From positions 1 through 64,000 of the IMG/VR virus record IMGVR_UViG_3300008113_000012: 64,000 bases of DNA; one strand, given 5' to 3'. Source of the stretch: a virus. The position numbers and the translations under genes were made by a program. Below, one piece after another: positions 29,478 to 46,145 of the stretch (within the stretch, counting starts at the first letter, position 1; every line of letters starts with the position of its first letter). Below the pieces are notes generated by a model. That model was not told the origin of the DNA. It did no database searches and saw only the letters and a list, made by a program, of their open reading frames with translations.

Positions 29478-30302
29478 ATGACAAAAGTTAATTACTTAAA
29501 CAACAAAGATTTACTAGAAGAAATACACAAAAGCAAAAATACATTCTGCTCATTTACGCAACCAGAGTATCATCGTTATGATTTGATATTGCCAAGTGTA
29601 GATAAAATTAATATTCGAACTATTGCTGAAGCTAAACGAGCGCAGGCAAAACGACAAAGCCAAGAAGCATATGTTGCCCGTAAGGCAGCTGGTGAAAAAG
29701 TTAAACAGGCAGATTGCGAAGTAGATTATAAAAAGATTCAAAAGACTGATGTTGTGTTTCGCATTATGACGTTTGATCATATTCCCCTGAACAATACCCG
29801 TAAAAAGAATCCTAAGACACTTGCTGACCATAGAGATAAAGTTAACTTTCCTCCGTTTCAACACTGGAAGTTTGATGATAAAGACATACTAGTGTGTGTT
29901 GGAAAAAGTCATTGGAAGGGTGATTTAGAAAAAGGCAAGTTTAATAAAGATCACGGGCAAATCACCAATACGCTAGCCCGCATGTATATTAAACTATGCG
30001 AACGCTATGCTACCCGTGGTAATGTTCGTGGCTACACTTACAACGATGAGATGCGTGGGCAGGCTATTCTACAGCTAACACAGATTGGCCTACAATTTGA
30101 CGAATCAAAGTCAGATAATCCATTTGCTTATTTTACTGCCGCAGTTACTAACAGCTTTGTTAGGATTATTAACTTAGAAAAACGTAATCAAAACATCCGT
30201 GATGACTTGTTAGAAATTAATGGCATGAACCCGAGCTATTCTAGAACTGGTTCTGGAGAACATGCTGCCGCTGTTAAGCGTTTCGACGAAACAACTGATT
30301 GA
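29478..30302 (+). CDS. 55: Late-transcription sigma factor gp55
   Basis: The 274-aa product starts MTKVNYLNNKDLLEEI, matching the YVNNKELL start region of T4 gp55. Its core contains KDHGQITNTLARMYIKLCER, then EMRGQAILQLTQIGLQFDES and NPFAYFTAAVTNSFVRIINL, the region-2-like helices that bind the TATAAATA element in gp55. This form is longer than T4 gp55 (185 aa) because of a Lys/Arg-rich insertion between about residues 50 and 150. gp55 binds host core polymerase together with gp33 and the sliding clamp; those partners are not in this window. It carries a near-perfect sigma70 promoter. Confidence 0.87.
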   Translation: MTKVNYLNNKDLLEEIHKSKNTFCSFTQPEYHRYDLILPSVDKINIRTIAEAKRAQAKRQSQEAYVARKAAGEKVKQADCEVDYKKIQKTDVVFRIMTFDHIPLNNTRKKNPKTLADHRDKVNFPPFQHWKFDDKDILVCVGKSHWKGDLEKGKFNKDHGQITNTLARMYIKLCERYATRGNVRGYTYNDEMRGQAILQLTQIGLQFDESKSDNPFAYFTAAVTNSFVRIINLEKRNQNIRDDLLEINGMNPSYSRTGSGEHAAAVKRFDETTD

Positions 30303-30327
30303 CCTGTAGCCTTAAAACAACTATAAT
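30299..30327 (+). promoter_or_regulatory. Sigma70-type promoter for gp47-gp46
   Basis: TTGACC (30299-30304) and TATAAT (30322-30327) are separated by 17 bp. The -35 element overlaps the gp55 stop region. The predicted start is near 30334, just ahead of CGGAGA, so the transcript would have a very short leader before the TTG start of gp47. Confidence 0.75.
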
Positions 30328-30347: not shown

Positions 30348-31361
30348 TTGAGTAACCTTTTTAAACGAGTAGCCTGCTTTACTGACATTCATTTTGGATT
30401 GAAGTCAAATAGTCAAGTACACAACCAAGACTGCGAAGATTTTGTAGATTGGTATATTGCTAAAGCCAAGGAGCAAGGATGTGACACAGGTATTTTTATG
30501 GGCGATTGGCATCACAACCGCAATAGTCTTAACATTACTACTATGGACTACTCACTTCGAGCACTGGAGAAACTTGGACAGGCTTTTGATCAGTTTTTCT
30601 TTTTTCCAGGTAATCACGATCTTTATTATAAGGATAAGCGTGATATTCATTCAGTAGAGTTTGGCAAGTATATTCCTGGAATTACTGTAGTTCACGAACC
30701 CACTACTATTGGCGACGTTACCTTATGTCCGTGGCTTGTAGGAGACGAATGGCGATCAGTAGGCAAAAAAGGCGGAAAATATATCTTTGGTCACTTTGAA
30801 TTGCCTAGCTTTTTCATGAACGCAATGATACAGATGCCAGATCACGGTGAAATTAATCTCGACAGCTTTAAAGGTTACGAAATGGGATTTAGTGGACACT
30901 TTCACAAGCGTCAGAGACAGCGTAATATGATCTATATTGGAAATGCATTTCCGCATAACTATGCAGATAATTGGGATGACGATCGTGGCATGATGATCTT
31001 AGAGTGGGACGGTGAGCCTGAATATCATACTTGGCCTATGCAGCCTACATTCCGCACAGTTAAATTAAGCGAACTAATTGACAATGCCGATACTATTATT
31101 AAACCTAATCAGCATCTACGTGTCAGTCTCGATATTGATATTAGTTATGAAGAAGCTAGCTTTATTAAAGAGAAGTTTATGGCAGACTATACCATACGTG
31201 AACTTACGCTAATTCCAGAAAAGAAAGAAATTGAAATCAACACAGACATTGACATTCAAGCGTTTGAAAGTGTAGATCAAATTGTCAGCAATCAATTGAT
31301 TAATATTGAAAGTGATACATTTGACAAAAAAGTACTGTTGGAGATTTATAACAGCTTATGA
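30348..31361 (+). CDS. 47: Recombination endonuclease subunit gp47 (Mre11/SbcD family)
   Basis: This is a calcineurin-like phosphoesterase with all the metal-binding motifs in order: TDIHFG (D13, H15), MGDWHHN (D53, H55/H56), PGNHD (N89, H90), IFGHFEL and SGHFHKRQ. With gp46 it forms the Mre11-Rad50-type complex that resects DNA ends for phage recombination and recombination-primed replication. The product is 337 aa, almost the same as T4 gp47 (339). The start is a TTG at 30348 with GGAG nine bases upstream; no suitable ATG exists before the first catalytic motif. The last bases overlap gp46 (ATGA). Confidence 0.95.
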   Translation: MSNLFKRVACFTDIHFGLKSNSQVHNQDCEDFVDWYIAKAKEQGCDTGIFMGDWHHNRNSLNITTMDYSLRALEKLGQAFDQFFFFPGNHDLYYKDKRDIHSVEFGKYIPGITVVHEPTTIGDVTLCPWLVGDEWRSVGKKGGKYIFGHFELPSFFMNAMIQMPDHGEINLDSFKGYEMGFSGHFHKRQRQRNMIYIGNAFPHNYADNWDDDRGMMILEWDGEPEYHTWPMQPTFRTVKLSELIDNADTIIKPNQHLRVSLDIDISYEEASFIKEKFMADYTIRELTLIPEKKEIEINTDIDIQAFESVDQIVSNQLINIESDTFDKKVLLEIYNSL

Positions 31362-33136
31362 TAAAAATTAAAGATTTAACAGTAAAAAACTTTATGAGTG
31401 TGGGCAATCAAACTCAGGCAGTAGATTTTGGTCGAGAGCAATTAACCCTTGTGTTAGGTGAAAACTTAGATCAAGGCGGGGATGACAGCGGCTCGAGAAA
31501 CGGAACTGGTAAAACTACCATTGTTAATGCACTAAGTTTTGCATTATTCGGCACTGCACTAACTAACATTAAAAAAGACAATCTGATTAATAAGATAAAC
31601 AACAGGAACATGTTAGTTACCTTAACGTTTGAAAAAGACGGTAACAAATATAAGATCGAGCGTGGGCGTAAACCTACAATCATGAAGTTCTATGTTAACA
31701 ATCAAGAGCAGAGTGCAGAGTCTACTGATGATAGTCAGGGTGACATGCGTGAAACGCAAAAGGATATTGACGAGTTGTTAGGAATGAGTCACGATATGTT
31801 TAAACACATTGTAGCTCTTAACACCTATACAGAACCGTTTCTCAGCTTGAAAGCTAATGAGCAACGTGAGATCATTGAGCAGTTGTTGGGCATTACTCTG
31901 TTATCAGAGAAAGCAGACACGCTTAAAGAACAGATTAGACAGACTAAAGAAAATATCTTTCAAGAAACAGCAGATATTGAAGCTGCTAAAAAGTCTAACG
32001 AAAAAATACAAGTAAGTATTACTGGTTTAGAAACTAGGCAATCAGCCTGGTATGCTCAACAGAAGACAGACTGTGCAAAAATTGAACAGAGCATTGCAGA
32101 ACTGCAAAGTGTTGATATTGAAAAAGAGCTTGTGCAACATGCTAAGTTAAAACAATATGACGAACATGCGGCTAAGATTAAAAGCCTTAACAAAGAAAAG
32201 GCCACACTAGAAACTGCTGTTATACAAGCTGACAAGACTGTAGCAAAATATACTAAAGAAGTAGAGCAGTTAAAAAATAAAACTTGTCCTGCGTGTGAGC
32301 AAGGGTTACATAGCCACAAGCACGAAGAAATGACTACCGGTGCTGAAAAGAACTTAGCAGATGCTGTTGCATATTTAGAAAGTATTAGTGATAGCTATGC
32401 AACTGTGCTTCAAGAGTTAGAGACTATAGGTGATATCAACGGCAGACCGCAGACTTACTACGACACTGTCGAAGAAGCATTAAAGCATCAAAACAATCTA
32501 ACAAGTCTAGAAGAAGCATTGACTAGGAGACATACAGAAACTGATCCTTATCAAGAACAAATTGATGATCTTAAGCATACTGCTATGCAAGATATCTCAT
32601 GGGATAATGTTAATTTGTTGAATAGTATGAAGGATCATCAAGAGTTCTTGTTAAAATTACTAACAAACAAAGATAGTTTTATCCGTAAAAAGATCATAGA
32701 TCAGAACCTTGCCTATTTGAATAACAGGCTTACGTACTATCTTGACAAGATGGGATTACCGCATCAAGTTAGTTTCTTAAACGACTTAAACGTTGAGATT
32801 ACACAGTTAGGACAGGATCTAGATTTTGATAACTTGTCTCGTGGCGAACGCAATCGTTTAATCTTAGGATTAAGCTGGGCGTTCCGTGATGTGTGGGAAA
32901 GTCTGTATCAAAGCATTAACTTATTGTTTGTTGACGAGCTTATCGACAACGGATTAGATGCAAACGGTGTAGAAAATGCGTTAGGTGTACTTAAGAAGAT
33001 GGCACGTGAACGTAAGAAGAACATTTTCTTAATCTCACACAAAGATGAATTGATTGGTCGTGTTAATAATGTACTTAAAGTTGTTAAGGAAAACGGCTTT
33101 ACCAGCTATGCAAACGATATTGAGGTTACAGAATAA
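31358..33136 (+). CDS. 46: Recombination endonuclease subunit gp46 (Rad50/SbcC family)
   Basis: The 592-aa ABC-type ATPase has Walker A GSRNGTGKT (residues 45-53), long coiled-coil arms, a zinc-hook CPAC at 310-313 in the middle, an ABC signature NLSRGERNRLILGLS near 492, and Walker B INLLFVDELID near 520, followed by FLISHKDE (H-loop). T4 gp46 is 560 aa. It overlaps gp47 by four bases (ATGA), so the two subunits are translationally coupled. It holds DNA ends and drives gp47 nuclease activity with ATP. Confidence 0.96.
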   Translation: MIKIKDLTVKNFMSVGNQTQAVDFGREQLTLVLGENLDQGGDDSGSRNGTGKTTIVNALSFALFGTALTNIKKDNLINKINNRNMLVTLTFEKDGNKYKIERGRKPTIMKFYVNNQEQSAESTDDSQGDMRETQKDIDELLGMSHDMFKHIVALNTYTEPFLSLKANEQREIIEQLLGITLLSEKADTLKEQIRQTKENIFQETADIEAAKKSNEKIQVSITGLETRQSAWYAQQKTDCAKIEQSIAELQSVDIEKELVQHAKLKQYDEHAAKIKSLNKEKATLETAVIQADKTVAKYTKEVEQLKNKTCPACEQGLHSHKHEEMTTGAEKNLADAVAYLESISDSYATVLQELETIGDINGRPQTYYDTVEEALKHQNNLTSLEEALTRRHTETDPYQEQIDDLKHTAMQDISWDNVNLLNSMKDHQEFLLKLLTNKDSFIRKKIIDQNLAYLNNRLTYYLDKMGLPHQVSFLNDLNVEITQLGQDLDFDNLSRGERNRLILGLSWAFRDVWESLYQSINLLFVDELIDNGLDANGVENALGVLKKMARERKKNIFLISHKDELIGRVNNVLKVVKENGFTSYANDIEVTE

Positions 33137-33413: not shown

Positions 33414-33851
33414 ATGTCATGGTATTATCAAGGAACTTTAATCGAAGCTTTACCCGAAGAGTGTATTGGCTTTGTTTATTGCATCACTAATAACATAACT
33501 GGTCGCAAATATATAGGCAAGAAATTAGCAAAATTCTCTAAAACAACTTATAAAACAGTAAAACTCAAAAACGGCAACAAGAAGAAAAAGAAGATTCGTT
33601 CTAAAATTGATTCTGACTGGCGTGAATACTATGGCTCAAGCGACCATCTAACAAAAGATATAGAAACTCTAGGCGCAGAGAATTTCAAAAGAGAAATACT
33701 TTACTACTGCACATCAAAGGCTGAATGTTCATACATCGAGGCAAGAGAACAATTTACAAGACGTGTTCTCGAAAGTGACGACTACTACAACGGACACATT
33801 GCTGTTCGTGTACACGGAAGTCATATCAAAGGCAAACAACTAAACGGTTAA
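33414..33851 (+). CDS. GIY-YIG-like endonuclease
   Basis: The 145-aa product contains ECIGFVYCITNNITGRKYIG (GFVY at 19-22 and KYIG at 32-35), the two beta strands of a GIY-YIG nuclease fold. It is followed by a Lys-rich stretch, then WREYYGSSDHL and later EREQF-like and DDYYNGHIAVRVHG motifs. T4-like phages carry both free-standing homing endonucleases and small conserved GIY-YIG proteins in this genomic region. The Lys-rich insertion replaces the usual catalytic Arg helix, so activity is uncertain. It starts four bases after the preceding gene and belongs to the same early operon. It does not interrupt another gene. Confidence 0.68.
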   Translation: MSWYYQGTLIEALPEECIGFVYCITNNITGRKYIGKKLAKFSKTTYKTVKLKNGNKKKKKIRSKIDSDWREYYGSSDHLTKDIETLGAENFKREILYYCTSKAECSYIEAREQFTRRVLESDDYYNGHIAVRVHGSHIKGKQLNG

Positions 33852-34084
33852 AGCTCGCACAGGCTAATTTCGTGTGCCGAACAGTAGAAACCTGGACTCA
33901 GTGTCGCAGGGATCCGTAGACTCTTGCCGTTAAGAGCACTCAATCAGTATCCTTTACAGGACCAGGATCGCAAAGCTGCCGCGGTTTGATTGTTTTAAGG
34001 AAATAAAGGCAAAAAGAGGGGAAATAAGCCCCACGTTTGCATGTATGTTAGCGTATGCATGTAGGCCGCCGTCATAATAAAGAC

Positions 34085-34124
34085 ACAGCTCGAGGTACCG
34101 GATGACCGCCTCTGTAACTGCTGT
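34085..34124 (+). ncRNA. Candidate structured RNA element (three-tier stem)
   Basis: ACAGC (34085-34089) pairs with GCTGT (34120-34124). Inside, GAGG (34092-34095) pairs with CCTC (34109-34112), and CGG/CCG closes an ATGA loop. Strand is assumed to be that of the flanking genes. Function unknown; the element lies in a non-coding region with further hairpins. Confidence 0.4.
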
Positions 34125-34154
34125 AACGCTAAGTGGATTGTGCAACTCAGATAA

Positions 34155-34197
34155 TGTTCAATTTTCTTTGCCCGCAAGGGCAAAGTGTGACTGAACA
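34155..34197 (+). ncRNA. Nested stem-loop with GCAA tetraloop
   Basis: CTTTGCCC (34166-34173) pairs perfectly with GGGCAAAG (34178-34185) around a GCAA tetraloop, enclosed by TGTTCA (34155-34160) and TGAACA (34192-34197). There is no downstream T-run, so it is not a standard terminator. AGATAAT motifs flank it on both sides. Confidence 0.45.
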
Positions 34198-34270
34198 ATC
34201 TAGATAATATTTAAACTGCTTCGCAGCAATTAATAAAAGAAAAATAGTTCGAGCTGAAAAGCGAAGAACT

Positions 34271-34288
34271 GATGTACGCAAGTACATC
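34271..34288 (+). ncRNA. Perfect 7-bp hairpin with GCAA loop before a late promoter
   Basis: GATGTAC and GTACATC flank GCAA. It ends four bases before the AATAAATA promoter element at 34292, so on the plus strand it would be at the 3' end of an incoming transcript rather than in the leader of the following gene. Confidence 0.45.
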
Positions 34289-34291
34289 ATT

Positions 34292-34299
34292 AATAAATA
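34292..34299 (+). promoter_or_regulatory. Candidate T4-type late promoter
   Basis: AATAAATA followed by CACTACTATG. The ATG at 34307 follows after only seven bases and no Shine-Dalgarno is visible, so the transcript would be almost leaderless. Confidence 0.4.
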
Positions 34300-34306
34300 C
34301 ACTACT

Positions 34307-35383
34307 ATGAAAATATATGAAATTGTTACTGAAGATCGTGCTAATGAAGGGATAGCTGACATTGCTAAAGGGGCAGCTACGGGTATAGCTAAAGGGGCTA
34401 AATGGGCTAAAGATGCTATTACCGGAACTAAAGCAGGTGCTGAAGTAGCTAAGGATGCTGGAAAAGCAAAGAAAGGTGTTGAAGTAGCTAAAGATGTGGC
34501 AAAAAATGCTGACAAGCTAAAGGTATCTGCAGAAGCAATGTCCAAAGTTAAGTCATTTGGCAGTGCTTTCATGTCTATATTAAGTGCGCTAGGTATAACA
34601 TACTTTGTCTATGAGTACTGGACTGAGATATTAAAACTTGAAGCAGAGTGGACTGAGTATAATAATGCAATTAAATCAAAGACTCAAGTGCCGTCAACTA
34701 ATAAATTTGCTGGCAAAGATTACGAAACAGCACTAAACGAAGCAGAGAACATGCGTTCGGACCTATTAGGTAAAGCAGTTGCTGGATGTTTAACGTCTGC
34801 AGGAATATTTGGAAAAGTAGTGCAAGTGTTTGGAACATTATTTAAAGCACTTCCTGTATTTGGTCCGCTAATAGGATCAACTATTGTAGGCGCAGGCTGG
34901 ATTATATCTAAAATAGAAATTGCACGAGCACCGTTTTTAATTTGGTTAGAAACTACTGACTCTGGTAAAGAGTTTATGAAGAATGTTTTTGTAGTGCTTA
35001 TTCTCGGCGGAACTGGCAAAGTTGCCGCCGATGCGGTTGATGCTCTTATGAAGTTAGCTGATATTGCAGTTGAGTTTATTAACGAAAAGTTTGGAACTAA
35101 CATTAAGAAACCTTCTGATACAGGTTTAGGTACAAAAATTAAACCAGATGCAGAAGCAGAAAAAGAAATAGATGCAAATATAAAAACTATTGACGGTGTT
35201 CCTGCTACTACAGCTGATGGTTACTTAAGATCTGATAGACCGTTCTGGGTACACAATAAAGTCAAATGGGAAATTGAAAAGCAAATGAATAAAGGACAGC
35301 CTAATCCTTTAGATAGTATCCCTAAGAATCCAAAATTAACTTATCCAACTGACTTGTTTAGAAATCTAAACTATGCAGGTTAA
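34307..35383 (+). CDS. Membrane-segment protein, function unknown
   Basis: The 358-aa product starts MKIYEIVTED and has an Ala/Lys-rich amphipathic region (IAKGAATGIAKGAKWAKDA, residues 18-36, and further KDAGKAKKGVEVAKD repeats). A hydrophobic segment follows (84-104), then a long hydrophobic hairpin region (about 152-202) and another segment (224-240). The C-terminal 100 residues are polar. No catalytic motif is seen. The IYE near the N-terminus fits the I/L-x-E cleavage preference of T4 gp21, so a protease-processed internal head or ejected protein is possible; that is inference. It ends tail-to-tail with the gp51-like gene, overlapping stop codons. I do not recognise a family. Confidence 0.68.
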   Translation: MKIYEIVTEDRANEGIADIAKGAATGIAKGAKWAKDAITGTKAGAEVAKDAGKAKKGVEVAKDVAKNADKLKVSAEAMSKVKSFGSAFMSILSALGITYFVYEYWTEILKLEAEWTEYNNAIKSKTQVPSTNKFAGKDYETALNEAENMRSDLLGKAVAGCLTSAGIFGKVVQVFGTLFKALPVFGPLIGSTIVGAGWIISKIEIARAPFLIWLETTDSGKEFMKNVFVVLILGGTGKVAADAVDALMKLADIAVEFINEKFGTNIKKPSDTGLGTKIKPDAEAEKEIDANIKTIDGVPATTADGYLRSDRPFWVHNKVKWEIEKQMNKGQPNPLDSIPKNPKLTYPTDLFRNLNYAG

Positions 35384-35610
35384 ATTAAGTTAATGCCGCT
35401 TTTCTTAGTGGCTTCGATATTTTCTTTAATTATTTCGTTTATAATTGTGCGATCTTCATACGAGTATGTATGAAACAGTAATTCGCTACTAACACCACCT
35501 CGCATATACCAACTTATGCGAAATATCTCGTCTTTTATACTTTTTATTTCGAATTCTAAGCCCTTAACAAATCCCTCAATCTCAGAGTTTGAGAGACGTA
35601 AGAGCTTCAT
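35380..35610 (-). CDS. 51: Baseplate hub assembly protein, gp51-like
   Basis: The 76-aa product has EIFRISWYMRGGVSSELLFH followed by TIINEIIKENIEATKKSGI. This WYMRGG pattern occurs in short proteins next to gp26 in T4-like phages. In T4 the hub assembly catalyst gp51 (249 aa) lies directly after gp26, so position also fits; the length does not, and homology to T4 gp51 is not demonstrable by eye. The start overlaps the gp26 stop by four bases (ATGA). The stop codon overlaps that of the convergent gene at 34307-35383. Confidence 0.55.
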   Translation of the reverse strand: MKLLRLSNSEIEGFVKGLEFEIKSIKDEIFRISWYMRGGVSSELLFHTYSYEDRTIINEIIKENIEATKKSGINLI

Positions 35611-36431
35611 ACGAAAAAATTTGCTTGGTCCAATGTGATAGTAATAGAGTTTTCAGCACTGCAACTAGAGCATAGAACAGGCTGCGGCGGCATACCCCAA
35701 GCTTCTTTGTTTTCTTCTAATTTGTTCTTAATTAATTTATAAGTATCTCGCTCAGTGTTGCGCAACCATTCTTCGATATGCACTTTTTCAGTTACTAGTA
35801 TACCTTCAACTTGAACGCTTTCGATTGCAGTTAAAAACAATTGCAATTGCAACTCCGATAAATCTTTATAAATTTGATCTACTTGTTGTTGTCTATTGTC
35901 ATCAGTTAAATCGGCAGTTTGAAACAATGTCTTTTGTAATTTAAAGTTCTCAATACTAAAATAACTCATTTCTTCATACTGTAACGGACGTATTCTAATA
36001 GTTAACGTATCAGAAACGGCAATTGCATTAACAAATTTTAAATTATTAAAGTGATCTAACAGTTTACCTAACTCAATCTCATATTCATTTTCTGATTCAC
36101 ATTTTTGACAAGTCTGTGTAACAGTCATTTTTTCGCCAAAGGTAGCAATACGTATAGCAATTAACAGTGCATCAATATCAATACTAGGCATTGTTTTTGC
36201 ATTTTTAATATATGGACAGCAACTTTCAATTACTTTAGCAGTAGCTTCTCCAGTAAATAATGCGTCTGGAGTTTTCATAATGATTTCGTCCATGCCGCTC
36301 ATAGCAAACACGGGAACATTGTTATAATCGCCGATTAACGAACCAGGTTCATAGTATAAACCCTTGCTAGGCAACGAAACATAGACTTTTGGCTGTCTAA
36401 AAAACTTTTGTAATGGATTTGGCTGGCTCAT
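35607..36431 (-). CDS. 26: Baseplate hub subunit gp26-like, zinc-ribbon type
   Basis: The 274-aa product contains KVYVSLPSKGLYYEPGSL, then SGMDEIIMKTPDALFTGEA and a pair of CxxC motifs far apart (C108-x2-C111 and C254-x2-C257), which together could bind one zinc ion. This architecture is that of the T4-type gp26 baseplate hub/assembly family in marine phages. In T4, gp26 is required for hub assembly. The gene is transcribed with the gp51-like gene from a minus-strand late promoter shared back to back with the tape-measure promoter. Confidence 0.75.
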   Translation of the reverse strand: MSQPNPLQKFFRQPKVYVSLPSKGLYYEPGSLIGDYNNVPVFAMSGMDEIIMKTPDALFTGEATAKVIESCCPYIKNAKTMPSIDIDALLIAIRIATFGEKMTVTQTCQKCESENEYEIELGKLLDHFNNLKFVNAIAVSDTLTIRIRPLQYEEMSYFSIENFKLQKTLFQTADLTDDNRQQQVDQIYKDLSELQLQLFLTAIESVQVEGILVTEKVHIEEWLRNTERDTYKLIKNKLEENKEAWGMPPQPVLCSSCSAENSITITLDQANFFV

Positions 36432-45347: not shown

Positions 45348-45434
45348 TATTGTATGATTCACACAGGGTGAATTTTATGCGGAAATCCAACCGCGTATGG
45401 CCTAGAACGCCATGTTTCTTAAGGAGAAAATAAA
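45348..45434 (+). ncRNA. Structured 5' leader with three hairpins
   Basis: Three adjacent perfect or near-perfect hairpins: ATTCAC/GTGAAT (45357-45373), TATGCGG/CCGCGTA (45376-45397, one G-T pair) and ATGGC/GCCAT (45397-45413). They precede AAGGAG (45421-45426) and the ATG at 45435. It could stabilise the mRNA or regulate translation. Confidence 0.5.
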
Positions 45435-46145
45435 ATGGGACGTCCTTTACATAAAAAATATTTTGGTAATACAATTACCCCGTTCAACAACTATGCACAA
45501 GGTGGCAACACTGGTGTAGGCGGAGAAGGCGTTGCTAGTGTAACAATCGCAGCACCAATCACGGCAGATCTAACAGGAACAATTACTGTTACATTTTCAG
45601 CTCCTCAAATTTCAGGCGGCATTACTGCAACAGGTACTGCACAAGTTAACGGCAGCAATGACCTAACAGGTATTTTGATTACTAATGCTGGTTCTGGTTA
45701 TACTTCAGTTCCAACATTCACAGTTGCCGACGGTAACGAGACTGCAACTTATACTAGTGGTTCAGGCGGCGTTACAGTTGCATTGACTAGCGGTGCAAGT
45801 GCTCGTCAAAACGCAATTAAATTTGAAGCACAAATTGGTTCAGGTACTGAAGTTACTACAGGTGACATTATCAAACAAGTTGGAAATCACAGATTTAGAG
45901 TTAGAACAAGTGATGGTACAGAAACATGTAAACTAGTTGCTAGTGCAAATCTTGGTGTAAACGAAATGAGCATTACTGCTACTGACTCAGCAACTAACAC
46001 TTATTTTGTAACTAAAATAACTGCCCGCCGTGTACAGCTAACTCAGATTGCAGGCGGTTCAAACTATGTATACGCAACCGGTGAAAGTGCTCCTTGGAAG
46101 TTTGATGCAGCCGCTGGTATCTACGTACAGATTGAAAATCAGTAA
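45435..46145 (+). CDS. Virion structural protein downstream of capsid (MGRPL type)
   Basis: The 236-aa product begins MGRPLHKKYFGNTITPFNNY. A protein with this start is, as I recall, regularly encoded near the capsid gene in marine T4-like phages. It then has beta-rich Gly/Thr/Val sequence with a GxGY strand pair (ILITNAGSGYTSVPTFTVAD) like those in the giant protein, and GNHRFRVRTSDGTETCKLV. It has its own late promoter, structured leader and strong AAGGAG, implying high expression. It may be a capsid decoration or neck-associated protein; function is unknown. Confidence 0.68.
   Translation: MGRPLHKKYFGNTITPFNNYAQGGNTGVGGEGVASVTIAAPITADLTGTITVTFSAPQISGGITATGTAQVNGSNDLTGILITNAGSGYTSVPTFTVADGNETATYTSGSGGVTVALTSGASARQNAIKFEAQIGSGTEVTTGDIIKQVGNHRFRVRTSDGTETCKLVASANLGVNEMSITATDSATNTYFVTKITARRVQLTQIAGGSNYVYATGESAPWKFDAAAGIYVQIENQ

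Follow-up and report, generated by a model that had tools for sequence, protein, structure and literature searches.

The gene-free gap downstream of the recombination genes gp47 and gp46 in a 64,000-nucleotide stretch of viral DNA (positions 1 to 64,000 of IMG/VR record IMGVR_UViG_3300008113_000012, hereafter "the window") encodes what comparative evidence identifies as a definite structured RNA, about 370 nt long and conserved among related uncultured phages, of which well over 150 carry it. As read from the alignment, its fold comprises three domains: a domain corresponding to the Polynucleobacter-1 RNA (Rfam RF01718), a double-pseudoknot domain, and a 3' domain with two copies of a short word that change in concert. 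The explanation that we favor, and hold to be moderately probable, is that this is a noncoding RNA of T4-like phages, forming the 3' part of an early operon, which would act in trans, as RNA or as a ribonucleoprotein, through its two words.

The gap, first noted in a preliminary description of this DNA, extends from the SegE stop codon (33849-33851) to the next ATG at 34307 and is crossed only by small overlapping ORFs. The hairpins named for it at that time, both those with GCAA loops and the nested stem, are real, but inverted repeats do not by themselves prove a structured RNA; that proof comes from covariation, and the most important pairings turned out to be two pseudoknots, which fall outside any inverted-repeat list. 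The single sequence has an unremarkable folding energy (z = -1.28; 11 of 100 shuffles fold equally well). The idea that one structured element fills the whole gap holds for about 33852-34226, where the sequence is conserved, but not for the final 80 bases, in which the second GCAA hairpin lies. The preliminary description had also put forward a phage small RNA and proposed a covariance search of Rfam; that search matched RF01718 above its gathering cut-off, and the small-RNA reading is borne out by this match, by long-range conservation, and by extensive compensatory change in relatives, including in the pseudoknots.

Homologs were collected with a domain 1 pattern, which hit 39 viral contigs (all real except L036), with two domain 2 patterns that added further loci, and with an iterated profile search, yielding 211 loci, of which 190 are full length (157 unique). 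Since the patterns were fixed and overlap domains 1 and 2, the core motifs there are partly imposed, and one pattern demanded TTAGC in the loop; the searches were made without the twin words, the 3' strand of pseudoknot a, and the 3' domain. In all real domain 1 copies that are not ended by a contig edge, the similarity continues into the same sequence beyond the end of the Rfam model. An alignment of 80 sequences, all less than 85% identical, covers the RNA over its full length and contains 54 invariant columns. Identity to the window across all relatives is 51 to 100% for the RNA; for the small upstream ORF, the median is 34 to 63%, depending on the band of relatives, and for the downstream gene, where recognizable, it is 29 to 36%.

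Covariation was evaluated with a home-made test rather than with R-scape, using a background-corrected G statistic and a null in which substitutions are re-placed on the tree. By this test, 27 column pairs are significant, and 17 of these are Watson-Crick. The named structure contains 16 helices, including the two pseudoknots, and was counted on an alignment built without it: 90.9% of cells pair, versus 77.7% with shuffled partners and about 40% with partners slid, and 59 of the 77 pairs show changes on both sides (791 cells, versus 233 in shuffles). Pseudoknot a, exemplified by the pairs TTAGCGT/ACGCTAA, ATAGCAT/ATGCTAT, and TGATAT/ATATCA, is paired in 97.1% of cells and has compensatory changes in 7/7 pairs, while pseudoknot b is paired in 99.8% of cells, with pairs 34073-34104 and 34074-34103 significant. 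Within the nested stem, pairs 34086-34123, 34087-34122, and 34088-34121 covary significantly. Toward the 3' end, helix counts for the hairpin between the words are affected by partial misalignment, and the GCTTCGC-like loop of the terminal hairpin was seen in 111 of 156 relatives.

Features of the RNA and its surroundings in window coordinates, from 5' to 3' on the plus strand
Feature	Position	Strand	Basis or remark
Sigma-70-like promoter TTGACC-17-TATAAT, 20 bases before gp47	30299..30327	+	11/12 consensus bases
gp47-like SbcD subunit	30348..31361	+	phrog_100, 5.2e-66
gp46-like SbcC subunit	31358..33136	+	phrog_77, 7.4e-106
SegE-type GIY-YIG endonuclease gene, directly upstream of RNA	33414..33851	+	PF19835, 2.8e-33
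Conserved structured noncoding RNA, whole extent	33852..34226	+	190 full-length homologs; 3' end approximate, 34216-34226
Domain 1, RF01718 Polynucleobacter-1 RNA	33852..33995	+	83.5 bits, cut-off 37
Linker stem	34019..34032	+	Covarying pair 34020-34031; 84% of cells paired
Domain 2, double pseudoknot, relative of RF02947 cow-rumen-2	34037..34132	+	Model matches and architecture
Hairpin P8, loop GTTAGCGT enters pseudoknot a	34037..34064	+	Helices 8 and 9; compensatory changes in 10/10 pairs
Pseudoknot a, 5' strand (P8 loop, TTAGCGT)	34048..34054	+	Pairs with 34126-34132; helix 10
Pseudoknot b, 5' strand	34071..34075	+	Pairs with 34102-34106; helix 11
Nested stems P9 (85-89/120-124) and P10 (92-95/109-112), three-tier stem	34085..34124	+	Helices 12 and 13
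Pseudoknot b, 3' strand, in P10 loop	34102..34106	+	Helix 11
Pseudoknot a, 3' strand	34126..34132	+	Helix 10
Twin word A, NNA-CTC-NNATRAN, in the window CAACTCAGATAAT	34143..34155	+	Same-letter covariation with word B
Hairpin between twin words, CTTTGCCC-GCAA-GGGCAAAG	34166..34185	+	Sequence; helix 14
Twin word B, NNA-TCT-NNATRAN, in the window CAATCTAGATAAT	34196..34208	+	7-mer identical to word A
Terminal small hairpin, GCTTCGC-type loop	34216..34226	+	Helices 15 and 16
Distal GCAA hairpin, outside conserved RNA	34270..34289	+	Comparable hairpin (perfect GNRA, at least 5 bp, 3' of RNA) in 24/151 relatives
T4-type baseplate protein, converging on RNA	35607..36431	-	PF12322, 5.4e-16

The match of domain 1 to RF01718 spans the whole model (1-141 of 141), and the consensus helices of the family (helices 1 to 6) are kept with compensatory change; covarying pairs are 33859-33875, 33861-33873, 33941-33945/33988-33992, and 33969-33971/33981-33983. 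By the extent of the alignment, the Rfam model is just the first 40% of the RNA, and the remainder is newly described here, so that a catalogued orphan RNA is corrected and more than doubled in length. Polynucleobacter-1 stems from Weinberg et al. 2010 (PMC2864571), whose Table 1 gives it as probably an RNA, probably cis-regulatory (cis-reg "y"), and uncertain as a switch ("?"), with the range "Burkholderiales, fresh water/estuary"; the cis-reg label was assigned by position upstream of genes. No further paper in the open-access library searched names it. Although domain 1 fits the entire 141-nt model with the same helices, the model lacks both pseudoknots of the phage RNA as well as its cow-rumen-2-like domain and its twin words, and the label "probably cis-regulatory, Burkholderiales" does not match the phage gene setting found here. 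In this way, Polynucleobacter-1 is reassigned from that label to the phage RNAs, with a constant position next to recombination genes, and it is linked to a second orphan family, cow-rumen-2. A further observation in domain 1 is a strong non-Watson-Crick covariation between 33950 and 33962 (T with C in 103 sequences, C with T in 54), perhaps a tertiary contact.

The link to cow-rumen-2 (RF02947) lies in domain 2. In the window, the RF02947 match is weak (34035-34132; 19.1 bits versus a cut-off of 66; E = 0.76 across all families). When 20 complete records of phages with the RNA were scanned, 12 matches at E<=1 were obtained, of which 10, from ten phage genomes, sit exactly on domain 2 at full model length and at an RNA offset of 174-186; the gathering cut-off was reached in 0 of the 20 records (12 to 21 bits versus 66). 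Because these records had been chosen by patterns other than RF02947, we take the matches as evidence of homology, which suggests that domain 2 is the counterpart of cow-rumen-2, though the scores are too low for membership. In the opposite direction, a model derived from the phage RNA (R1) gave hits of 11 to 20 bits in 14 of 26 sources, a range that overlaps with motif-bearing chance loci, which reach 13 and 18.5 bits. Cow-rumen-2 also shares the order of parts of domain 2, that is, a hairpin with a TTAGC loop, GCCGCC, a stem around a stem with an ACxGGATGACCG loop, and GTAA. It is likewise phage-borne, with 1 to 4 copies per viral record of 41 to 424 kb, and in two loci (L286 and L304) a copy lies beside gp47/gp46. 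In contrast to the phages described here, cow-rumen-2 phages yielded no RF01718 domain 1, no SegE, and no twin words; in cow-rumen-2 itself, no words were obvious by eye. The conserved sequence of cow-rumen-2 reaches beyond the Rfam model on both sides, and this 5' and 3' extension is also seen in a single viral contig of 415,750 bp that holds four copies (L296, L303, L304, and L309). The cow-rumen-2 loop may pair with a downstream GCTGA or GCTTA. In another viral contig, a divergent domain-2-like RNA (L283:8097-8155; GCCGCC ... GGTACAGGATGACCGCCT) has different flanking stems.

The 3' domain carries a pair of 7-base words at 34149-34155 and 34202-34208. Read alignment-free as NNATRAN 7-mers in ACTC-[word] and TCT-[word], they are identical in 155/155 RNAs where both are readable. 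The significant non-Watson-Crick pairs 34149/34202 (AA or GG), 34153/34206 (AA or GG), and 34155/34208 (TT, AA, or GG) carry the same letter on both sides without exception. Ten variants of the word occur, the commonest being AGATAAT (64), GGATGAA (25), GGATAAT (19), GGATGAT (17), and AGATGAT (11), followed by GCATAAT (6), AGATGAA (6), AGATGAG (5), GAATGAT (1), and GGATGAG (1), and parsimony counts about 37 word changes on the tree. Sharing extends weakly to the preceding bases (34143-34145), but the three-base cores before the words, CTC for word A and TCT for word B, are constantly different, as are the flanks, and the spacing between the words varies from 47 to 61 nt. In the RNA, the frames would read NNA-CUC-NNAURAN and NNA-UCU-NNAURAN. 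Gene conversion between the repeats was considered and rejected, since the cores inside them stay different and a copied tract therefore cannot explain the identical words.

Given that the words are identical in all RNAs read, have changed many times on the tree, and lie in flanks that remain different, both probably bind one common partner in trans. A Watson-Crick covarying column that could serve as their partner inside the RNA was not found, and no enrichment of the word or of its antiword was seen in the 8 kb flanking the RNA on each side or in the window. SegE was tried as the partner and set aside, its association with word type being no stronger than that of gp46 or the baseplate protein. 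The concerted words provide a handle for a partner search: any genuine partner has to recognize both of them and is expected to vary among phages whose words differ. The function of an unexplained class of phage RNA thereby becomes open to testing.

The association with gp46/47, to which the preliminary description had drawn attention, is real: the order gp47, gp46, small ORF, SegE, and RNA is conserved. SegE lies immediately upstream of the RNA in 133 of 142 loci, with 0 to 64 nt between its stop and the RNA, and in 101 of 107 relatives the baseplate gene follows downstream in minus-strand orientation. A PDDEXK_15 gene replaces SegE in L038 (identified by Pfam) and L009, and these contigs, which are fragments, contain no SegE. 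The promoter site before gp47 recurs in close relatives (scores of 10 to 11 in 21 of 57 relatives, versus 3 of 57 control windows) and is the probable start of an early transcript. No promoter or terminator adjoining the RNA was found; a search of both strands between 30000 and 34500 gave no terminator-like site, and a terminator was rejected.

Under the explanation that we favor, the RNA would be made as the 3' part of an early gp47-gp46-orf-SegE transcript from the promoter before gp47, and would then be processed or simply be kept at the transcript end. In trans, its two words would engage a single kind of partner, either a protein or an RNA, present as two copies or as a dimer and varying between phages. 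A more far-reaching version, which we put forward tentatively and would sooner doubt than assume, is that the RNA is a bivalent, adaptable decoy or scaffold, whose concerted variable words in constant frames are tuned to a fast-changing partner such as a host factor, and that Polynucleobacter-1 and cow-rumen-2 form one phage RNA superfamily. A processing or stability element, also raised in the preliminary description, may be an alternative reading of the gap RNA.

A related alternative is that the RNA works in cis, as a 3' element of the gp47-gp46-SegE mRNA whose pseudoknotted fold blocks 3'-to-5' decay or converging baseplate transcription and whose words bind a regulator of the message. This would fit the constant location of the RNA, which follows the same genes at their 3' end, after SegE and facing minus-strand baseplate genes at the frequencies given above, and no intrinsic terminator was found there. 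However, a decay block needs neither 54 invariant columns nor two concerted words, the related cow-rumen-2 RNAs occur in up to four places per genome in phages where SegE was not found, and a PDDEXK_15 gene takes the place of SegE in L038. We therefore regard a cis-acting 3' element as unlikely.

It is tempting to see in the proximity of SegE and RNA a mobile or RNA-guided nuclease system, since TnpB/IscB-type RNAs are likewise structured and directly 3' of a nuclease gene, since the distance from the SegE stop to the RNA is 0 to 64 nt in nearly all loci, and since the conservation of SegE in distant relatives exceeds that of gp46 (median amino acid identity of 76% versus 57 to 72%). Yet the nuclease here is a GIY-YIG enzyme that can be absent or replaced rather than an obligate partner: the RNA occurs without SegE on the partial contigs L038 and L009, and SegE was not found in cow-rumen-2 phages. 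Synteny is moreover fixed, with no mobility seen, SegE relatives elsewhere come without a matching RNA, and the words do not specially track SegE residues, all of which makes such a system very unlikely. Conservation above that of gp46 is, as a separate observation, unusual for a selfish homing endonuclease.

Highly improbable, too, is that the RNA serves the downstream gene as a 5' leader (a riboswitch or other cis-regulatory RNA), as the cis-reg label in PMC2864571 and the start of a plus-strand gene 81 nt 3' of the RNA in the window might imply. A same-strand ORF of at least 120 aa within 300 nt downstream is absent in 51 of 124 loci, and in the others it belongs to several unrelated families; leader function is disfavored because there is neither a conserved same-strand gene nor a functionally coherent gene set downstream. 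In addition, TTAATAAATA (34290-34299, plus strand), which resembles a T4-like late promoter, separates the RNA from the next gene. That gene (34307-35383) encodes 358 aa, with nothing in Pfam or PHROG matching it at E<=0.01. Finally, a DNA site (an origin, a recombination site, or protein-binding repeats) with incidental hairpins, of which a replication or recombination site had been proposed earlier and which the nearby gp46/47 genes and the direct repeats might suggest, is extremely improbable, as conservation tracks RNA pairing, compensatory changes preserve RNA pairs including G-U pairs and pseudoknots, and the repeat spacing of 47 to 61 nt lacks 10.5-bp helical phasing; DNA iterons were rejected on the same grounds.

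Among known RNA classes, GOLLD and ROOL are ornate RNAs of phages and assemble into RNA cages (PMC12286853). The gap RNA resembles them in being large, phage encoded, and pseudoknotted, but it is smaller and does not lie beside a tRNA island, the window being without tRNA; their Rfam models gave no match to the window at gathering or at E<=5. Rfam families of group I or II introns had no match in the window either.

With respect to distribution, blastn against 50,697 phage records returned no match to the RNA, and the nearest cultured phages by SegE/gp46 (Melnitz, PA5oct, V45v66, Phosso, Atu_ph07, ACP17, and phiN3) were without a match to R1 or RF01718 at that sensitivity. A pattern scan of 84,980 prokaryote genomes gave 56 matches, of which L342 and L357 alone are real; as both are short MAG contigs, this argues for a phage RNA, and by its occurrence in these data sets the RNA belongs to uncultured phages. 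The same phage carries a second catalogued RNA, freshwater-2 (RF02980; window 45357-45437, plus strand; 72.2 bits, cut-off 49.9), which ends right at an ATG (45434) and is likely a 5' leader.
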